Source: Fodinicola acaciae (GTDB lineage Bacteria; Actinomycetota; Actinomycetes; Mycobacteriales; HKI-0501). From it: a stretch of 64,000 nucleotides of DNA. The DNA lies in assembly GCF_010993745.1 (NCBI RefSeq), contig NZ_WOTN01000001.1:685235-749234 (forward strand). Direction: 5' to 3'. Of this stretch, positions 11,241 through 54,987 are shown in pieces (positions within the stretch are counted from its first letter, which is position 1; every line of letters starts with the position of its first letter). A program made the position numbers and the translations under genes. The notes beneath the pieces are model-generated. The model was not told the origin of the DNA. It searched no databases and saw nothing but the letters and a program-made list of their open reading frames with translations.

Positions 11241-11744
11241 GGTTGTCCGGCGATCCCTAGATGATCTATTCCAAGGGTCGCACCCGCCGGGTCGTCAGGA
11301 GGGCGTGTGTTGTTGATCATGGGGTTTTCGCGTATGTCAAGCTCAAAAAGTGCGTCACAGCCCCATGAGCAACTCGGACAGGCCGTGGCGTCCCGGCAGG
11401 TGGCGAGACGAACTCTATGTGGGACCGATAAGCACCTGTAACGCTAAATGTCCGCCTTGCGGTGTTCATGGTTGGCGCGAAAGCCGATTTACTGGCGTTG
11501 GACGCAAGAAAACGGCTTCACTCCCACCTGGCCGCCGCTCGTGTGACTGAAGTGACTGTTGAGGCGAGCAATGCTGTTGTGACTCATGTGGGTTGGCTTG
11601 CTCGTTGCCCCTGATTCGAGCTTTCCTCGACCGCGACGGCGTCCAGCAATCGGGCACCAAGTCAAGTACGCAAGCTACCCCCCAGCCCTTTGAATAGATC
11701 GTCTAGTGGCCCGAGTCCGAGTCGGGACACTAGGTTCGTCGGAC
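11241..11744. repeat. Dispersed repeat, copy A (truncated)
   Basis: This 504-bp gap contains no credible gene. Positions about 11385-11587 match the block-1 module of copies B (22249-22460) and D (46232-46442). Shared segments include the GTGGCGTCCCGG head, GTGGGAC, a TGTAACGCTAAATG core, GCGTTGGACGCAAGAAA, and the GCTGTTGTGACT tail. The other modules of the family (the 47-bp block, the 37-bp block and the GC-rich arms) are absent, so this is the most degraded copy. Confidence 0.7.
11703..11733. promoter_or_regulatory. Inverted repeat just upstream of the second MHS transporter
   Basis: CTAGTGGCCCGA and TCGGGACACTAG form 12-bp arms with one mismatch around a 7-base spacer, ending 11 bp before the ATG at 11745. 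It could be an operator or a hairpin in the mRNA leader. Confidence 0.4.
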
Positions 11745-21889: not shown

Positions 21890-22757
21890 CGATATTCGGC
21901 AGTGGGTCCGTGTGTGGGCCGCGGGCTGGGTAGGGGTTTAGCGGGTTGCGTTTTCTGTTTGGTGCGTTGGGAGGGTCGGGCTCTTCATTTTTGGTGCGTT
22001 TGGGGGGTGGTGGCGCCTGCGCGGCGGGCGCTCCTGCGCGGAGGGCGACCTCAAGGGGAGGGGCGCGCGGGGTTTCGTTGTTGGTTGGGTTGGGTGCGGC
22101 GTGTGCGGTTTCGTACGGCGTGTGGTCCGGTTTGTCCGTTCTCCTCCGTCGGAGTCCGGAGGATGAGCACATGTGCTCAAGCAAAGCTCGCCGACGGGGG
22201 AGAACGGACAAACCGGACCAGGAGCGTGGATGGATCGCCGGAGTTGCGGTGGCGTCCCGGTCTGCGGCGGGAAGATCCAATATGTGGGACGAGAAGCAGA
22301 TGTAGCGCTAAATGTTCGACTTGAGAGGTTTGTAGATGGCATGAATGTCGAGTTACTTGCGCTGGACGCAAGGAACAAGGCCTTCACGCCACAACGATCC
22401 CCGGAGGCTGTGACGGGTGTGACTACTGAGGCTGATAATGCTGTTGTGACTGCTCGGCTGCGACAGACGTCCGTTTTGATGTCTTGTTAAACAAGTATTA
22501 CGCAGTCAGCGGCTACGGCACGATCGTTTGGCGTCCAGACCGACGGGTTGCTTCCCATGCGTGCCCGGACAACCAGCCCCGCCGCAAACGCGCAGCCGAC
22601 CCCCATGCACACCGATTGGCATCCACGCGCCCCTCCCTTGAGGTCGCCCTCCGCGCAGGAGCGCCCGCCGCGCAGGCGAAAAACCAACCACCCCTGACGC
22701 AACAACCAGGAGACGCACCCACCCCGCCACCACAACCCAGCTAAGGGTCCCCGCGCC
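21890..22757. repeat. Dispersed composite repeat, copy B (largest, with terminal inverted repeats)
   Basis: This 868-bp gap has no credible gene. It starts with a G/T-rich tract (about 21900-22014) and ends with an A/C-rich tract (22678-22745), so the ends are complementary in composition. Inside are a 52-53 bp inverted repeat (22015-22067 with 22626-22677, one indel), a 28-bp hairpin (22125-22218), block 1 (22249-22460), a 47-bp block (22463-22509) and a 37-bp block (22522-22558). Short ORFs across it use codons unlike the neighbouring genes. Related copies occur at about 11385, 28440-28890 and 46200-46540. Confidence 0.8.
22125..22218. repeat. 28-bp inverted repeat hairpin within copy B
   Basis: Arms 22125-22152 and 22191-22218 match at 27 of 28 positions around a 38-base loop. 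The loop itself contains the perfect palindrome TGAGCACATGTGCTCA (22164-22179). No counterpart was seen in the other copies. Confidence 0.8.
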
Positions 22758-28343: not shown

Positions 28344-28994
28344 GCGTCAGACTCTAACAAATTTCGCGGTTTGGTAAGGAATTCCCGCTGCTCGAGGAGC
28401 AAGTACGACTGGCGGCAGTTGAGACGCCCGGGCTTCCTGGGGCATGCATCCCGTAGCTGGTTGTAGTGGTGGTGTTGGTTTCTGTGTCGTGTTGCGTGAG
28501 TGGTTGCGTCGTCCGTTTTGTTGCGTTGGGTGGATGGTTGGGTTTTCGCCTGCGCGGCGGGCGACCTCAAGGGAGGGGCGCGTGGATGCCAATCGGTGTG
28601 CATTGGGGGTGCGGCTGCGCGTTTGTGGCGGGGCTGGGTTTTCTGGGCAAGCCAGGTCACCTTTGGAAGCAACCCGTCGGGATGGACGCCAAACGGTCTT
28701 CCTGTAGCGCTACATGTCCGTTTTGCCGGCTTGTCTGTTGATGGCAAGGCCTACTTACGTGCGCCTGACGCACGCATGGGGGCCTTGCGAACATTGAGGG
28801 CGGCCGGGGTGGTGCTGGTGTGGCTGACAATGCGGGTGAGACGGTCTGATCGCGTAATGCTTGGTTAACAAGACATCAAATCGGGTGTTTAGTGCGGACG
28901 ACTCTCTTGCTGCGGGTATGTTCGGCTTGTCGTTGCTTGTCGGCGCCGACCCTGACGAATCTCGGTTTTGGCTGGTCGGGGTTAGTGTGGCGAG
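28344..28994. repeat. Dispersed composite repeat, copy C (opposite orientation, rearranged)
   Basis: This 651-bp gap has no gene. On the minus strand it matches copy B: the GC-rich arm and its flank (about 28545-28640), the 37-bp block (28665-28698) and the 47-bp block (28846-28885). The palindrome TGTAGCGCTACA (28703-28714) and about 45 bp of the block-1 head follow in plus orientation. A hairpin (28744-28788) and about 60 bp of unique sequence sit between these and the 47-bp block. The modules are thus in a different order from copies B and D. Confidence 0.75.
28744..28788. terminator. Hairpin inside copy C, related to the rbpA/pgl hairpin
   Basis: Outer arms GCAAGGCC/GGCCTTGC and inner arms CGTGCG/CGCACG with a 6x6 internal mismatch. 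The right arm matches the right arm of the hairpin at 54939-54987 at 18 of 20 positions, so the two hairpins appear to share an origin. Confidence 0.55.
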
Positions 28995-46196: not shown

Positions 46197-47852
<1,656 letters not shown>

Positions 47853-54927: not shown

Positions 54928-54938
54928 CCCTCAGAAGT

Positions 54939-54987
54939 TCGCATGGCCACCATGCGTGCGTTCAACGCACGCATGGTGGCCATGCGA
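54939..54987. terminator. Long palindromic bidirectional terminator between rbpA and pgl
   Basis: Perfect 24-bp arms (54939-54962, 54964-54987) around a single C, forming a 49-bp palindrome between convergent genes. Its right arm matches the hairpin in copy C (28744-28788) at 18 of 20 positions. Confidence 0.85.

Follow-up and report, generated by a model that had tools for sequence, protein, structure and literature searches.

The window analysed here is a 64,000-nucleotide stretch (C1:685235-749234) of a high-GC genome of 8.86 Mb in four contigs (C1-C4), and four of its intergenic gaps, designated A to D, hold copies of a composite repeat. The closest relatives of this genome's GAPDH are actinobacterial, and the nearest one with a name is only 81% identical. 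Comparison of the window with itself recovered the direct and inverted blocks described in a first-pass annotation, and a 342-nt consensus of the repeat core matched all four gaps, with no match in the reversed window used as a control. The modules thus lie where they had been placed and, as was claimed, all four copies stand between genes.

Among these copies, the full architecture is found in B, which occupies its whole gap (21890-22757, plus strand) as delimited by the module map and by flanking genes assigned from open reading frames and family matches. It contains an inverted R unit in the left arm (21944-21968, minus strand; 88% match to the R consensus), a left-arm T module (22014-22063, plus; 100%) with an inverted counterpart at 22630-22678, and a Ta module (22064-22110, plus; 94%). 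The H hairpin that follows (22124-22219, plus; arms at 22124-22152 and 22191-22219) was seen both as an inverted repeat in the self-comparison and in the module map. The core, modules Ca to Ce, extends over 22226-22566 (plus; 89% to the core consensus, E = 8e-120), and is followed by a right arm of inverted Tb and T (22600-22678, minus; 97-98%) and a right-arm R unit (22697-22724, plus; 93%).

Copy D, in the gap between whiA and the GAPDH gene (46197-46740, plus), comprises the core (46236-46548, plus; 89% to consensus, E = 4e-106) and right-hand R units without T arms; its right limit was set at the onset of similarity to the GAPDH promoter of a congener. Copy C (28496-28901, minus) is inverted, as had been noted, and represents a short subtype which reads R, T, Tb, S, Ce, X palindrome, Cd in the module map. 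Two separate inverted segments of it, 28655-28709 and 28846-28901, match the core consensus, and its X palindrome (28744-28791, no strand assigned) was detected by self-comparison and module mapping. Copy A, already described as a remnant, is a diverged Ca-Cc segment devoid of arms (11375-11584, plus; 74% to consensus, E = 1e-34).

Module architecture and hairpins

Modules were mapped over about 2 Mb of stretches from the genome, and their order was read from about 60 clusters of at least two modules each in 1.2 Mb. Full copies measure 0.6-1.0 kb and display a fixed order: inverted R(n), T, Ta, (H hairpin), Ca, Cb, Cc, Cd, (inverted Cc or X palindrome), Ce, (G hairpin), S, inverted Tb, inverted T, R(n), where parentheses mark optional modules; many of the copies in these clusters are shortened or decayed. 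R motifs, with a unit period of about 33 nt, were found 114 times near clusters and not once elsewhere in the 1.2 Mb. The outward R arms are C/A-rich and G-poor, and their units diverge stepwise from the consensus in the outward direction, the score dropping from 0.76 to 0.30 across six steps. Because the outer R units fade gradually, neither a clean outer end nor a target-site duplication was definable in the element copies.

This combination of features can be set against two known types of repeat. As in MITEs, copies are numerous (about 116 cores), short and devoid of a full-length gene; the T and R arms are inverted, with outer R units that fade in place of a sharp edge. A fixed module order with optional internal modules, as in BOX-type repeats, is also present. 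No autonomous partner with matching ends was found in the approximately 2 Mb examined; a candidate autonomous copy between distant T modules on C3 (a 9.5-kb pair) turned out to be two separate elements.

The H and G hairpins form a graded, symmetric length series: some copies have none, others short ones and others nested double hairpins in which the innermost loop is R-like. The inner H stems occur in three different versions, each self-complementary. Complementarity of H was 99% within a copy versus 84% across copies (four distinct pairs only, P = 0.07), and that of X 89% versus 84% (P = 0.01); in the T arms no within-copy pairing link of the kind tested for H and X was seen. Pairing that is kept in the small hairpins H and X fits DNA hairpins as well as RNA. 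X itself is a family of 45-bp near-perfect palindromes (GCATGGCCACCATGCGTGCG...), in which stems vary and pairing is mostly kept. It also stands alone outside the elements, at window positions 54938-54985 and at C4:654790, 660155, 688335, 759264 and 785237; some of these lone palindromes lie close to the origin, a region from which the composite element is missing.

Copy number, range and gene context

The first-pass annotation had described the shared modules as found nowhere else in the window. Two corrections apply: the palindrome at 28744-28791 belongs to the X family and recurs outside the elements, for example at 54938-54985, and the repeat family extends over the whole genome. The genome-wide search for further copies that had been proposed as a check gave about 116 core sites in 8.86 Mb, compared to 0 for a reversed-pattern control (17-mer of the core, at most 2 mismatches). 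A 15-mer of the T module was found at 144 genomic sites versus 3 in the control, and a BLAST of the core against its own genome gave 204 candidates, with 40 strong copies among those scored.

Outside this genome, 60 relatives gave no comparable copy, their two matches being short (25-39 bp, E about 7e-4), and neither did 398 other genomes of the same order, a search of limited sensitivity in which two candidates per genome were scored. Searches of plasmids and phages revealed no element copy, and none was found in genome contigs of 84,980 species (one exact 25-mer as query) or in viral contigs, these contig scans being by exact 22-25-mers only. The family thus appears lineage-specific, being known from one actinobacterium and from no other species searched.

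The 69 near-complete cores diverge from their consensus by 9.7% on average, with one third of the columns nearly invariant. As even the closest two cores differ by 4.3%, there is no sign of recent movement. Linkage between columns weakens with distance (r2 of 0.14 between neighbours, 0.025 at long range), the pattern that an exchange of segments among copies would produce.

Elements are located in 38 convergent, 12 divergent and 46 tandem gaps, compared to 65, 121 and 185 among background intergenic regions of at least 100 bp in the same DNA (gene calls from a simple home-made caller). The enrichment in convergent versus divergent gaps (Fisher P = 3e-7) indicates a preference for gaps at the 3' ends of genes, where some copies come after an ordinary hairpin-plus-T-run terminator. 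Synteny around parts of the window is shared by a congeneric draft genome and by a second genus of the family, both of which lack the element. Between alignable flanks, the whiA-GAPDH gap measures 543 bp in this genome, whereas the congener has about 185 bp at that place and the second genus about 125 bp; a gap at C1:3.201 Mb measures 822 bp here versus 58 bp in the congener. The intergenic gaps of these relatives are too diverged for a base-level alignment of empty sites or target duplications.

Orientation of the copies follows the replication fork

The dnaA gene is located at C4:596,668, and a dif-like site was found once in the genome, at C1:1,302,253. GC skew flips at this dif-like site, from about +20 to about -17 per thousand, and with the inferred contig order C4-C2-C1-C3 the two arms leading to it from dnaA measure 4.47 and 4.39 Mb. 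Fork direction was set from these two landmarks and from GC skew; it is skew-supported within C1 and C2 and less certain in C3 above 0.75 Mb and in C4.

Of 98 elements with a called orientation, 73 point with the fork (74%; P = 1.3e-6) and a quarter against it; the excess over the leading-strand share of genes (53%) is also significant (P = 1.6e-5), the P values for the family being approximate throughout because the copies are not fully independent and some may stem from duplication. Convergent and divergent gaps alone gave 35:15 (with:against). Tandem gaps gave 27:6 for genes co-oriented with the fork and 10:3 for genes opposed to it; both ratios favour the fork, so that gene direction adds nothing visible. 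Orientation goes with the replication fork, not with the genes. An apparent coupling to the upstream gene (24:4 in the first 1.2 Mb, 30:16 in a larger sample) was gone once the fork was considered; it is explained by replication, as fork direction accounts for orientation.

The copies are also unevenly spread along the chromosome. Among 104 listed core sites (not all of the approximately 116), 27 are in the ori-proximal half and 77 in the ter-proximal half. Only fragments were observed in the 400 kb around dnaA and in the 200 kb around the dif-like site (within about 100 kb of it), the latter region being devoid of intact copies.

Origin of the repeat family

The first-pass annotation had left the choice between a mobile element and a structured RNA. 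Its mobile half is borne out by more than 100 dispersed intergenic copies of fixed architecture with inverted arms, by the short syntenic gaps in relatives, by the 3'-end preference and by the fork-polar orientation. The alignment of three quarters of the copies with the fork is suggestive of a mobile element whose insertion took place at replication forks. We consider it probable that what occupies the gaps is a single lineage-specific, non-autonomous mobile repeat in several copies, BOX/BIME-like in build but longer, inserted with fork polarity. Insertion would have been carried out by a fork-sensing machinery, for example via the single-stranded lagging-strand template or the sliding clamp, and copies would have been tolerated mainly downstream of genes. 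They may now be decaying and swapping sequence among themselves, with hairpin tips lost through palindrome-linked deletion, while the mobiliser may be lost, unrecognised or unlinked. Points against this explanation are that intact copies are missing around the dif-like site, unlike in known fork-targeting elements, that even the closest cores show no sign of recent movement, and that neither a transposase nor an autonomous copy, a target-site duplication or a sharp end came to light for the family; within the genome the only driver searched was a Y1 transposase, for which PF01797 gave no match (control genomes were positive). One unlikely variant is that the family spread, independently of a Y1 transposase, through a replication-coupled process that has not been described before. 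It would have acted on folded single-stranded DNA rich in hairpins and would have left nested hairpins and fork-polar insertions along the middle of both chromosome arms.

Some of the same observations could also be read in terms of function. Transcribed structured RNAs, or terminators for the upstream gene such as two-way Rho-dependent terminators, would agree with the 3'-end and convergent-gap preference, with the composition of the R arms and with the pairing kept within copies in H and X. Folding of the core alignment was weakly better than that of column shuffles on the sense strand (z = -2.3) and not better on the antisense strand (z = 0.06). The covariance check proposed in the first-pass annotation did not, however, reveal the covarying helices of a conserved RNA core, the strongest column couplings being neighbours in linkage and not base pairs; no Rfam match was found within the window, some copies come after an ordinary terminator, and it is the fork, not gene direction, that explains orientation. 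The RNA half of the earlier proposal is therefore not upheld for the core, and we regard an RNA or terminator role as quite improbable. Selected polar chromosome markers, comparable to FtsK-orienting or other architecture sequences, would account for an orientation that reflects function and not insertion, as well as for the ter-proximal excess and the nearly invariant core columns. Such markers should be densest near dif, where only fragments remain; in addition, a quarter of the copies are wrongly oriented, many are shortened or decayed and the congener has no such repeats, all of which renders a marker function distinctly improbable.

That the core is a family of small protein genes, whether decaying or still working, is barely credible. 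One sense frame of the core does show fewer amino-acid changes than expected (ratio 0.59), but it carries an in-frame stop in 39 of 69 copies, and the coding reading was rejected on these stops; no open frame survives. The ratio is much alike in the sense and the antisense frame, which is what uneven column conservation would bring about. Neither the sense nor the antisense peptide had a Pfam match, and the sense peptide had no tblastn match in plasmids. One antisense frame displays 0 stop changes across the 69 copies, compared to about 15 expected from the substitution spectrum.

Among known systems, the BOX elements of Streptococcus pneumoniae are the nearest analogue of the mobile repeat in build and gene context. 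They are modular, hairpin-forming and lineage-restricted, are present in around a hundred copies and are enriched between convergent genes (PMC3049150), all of which is similar here, the likeness being one of architecture only. BOX elements consist of three modules in 67-637 bp and have inverted ends and target duplications, and an insertion sequence has been proposed as their mobiliser (PMC3049150), whereas the element described here has more than ten modules in 0.6-1.0 kb and no defined ends or mobiliser. About 61% of BOX elements are on the leading strand, a bias that mirrors coding bias (PMC3049150); the fork bias of 74% observed here goes beyond the coding bias of 53% in this genome. REP/BIME sequences with RAYT transposases (PMC2817692) are likewise high-copy extragenic repeats with palindromes in a mosaic arrangement, but the core here is long (about 340 nt) and non-palindromic, and membership in this class fails because the Y1 transposase is missing. 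Precedents for an orientation that follows host replication are IS200/IS605 and Tn7-TnsE, which have a preference for sites of replication termination and depend on TnpA or TnsE (PMC5371812); in contrast, intact copies here are missing around dif and no driver was found (Y1 only was searched).

The repeat thus represents a high-copy modular family in an isolated actinobacterial lineage, longer and richer in modules than pneumococcal BOX. Its statistical link to replication direction, separate from gene direction, makes fork-coupled spread testable by strain comparison, and the family provides a natural archive in which the shortening of hairpins and the exchange of sequence among scattered copies can be followed. 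A congener harbors a repeat of its own, a 167-bp fold-back palindrome with sharp ends and 12 full copies; it is a real repeat, but one unrelated to the composite element.
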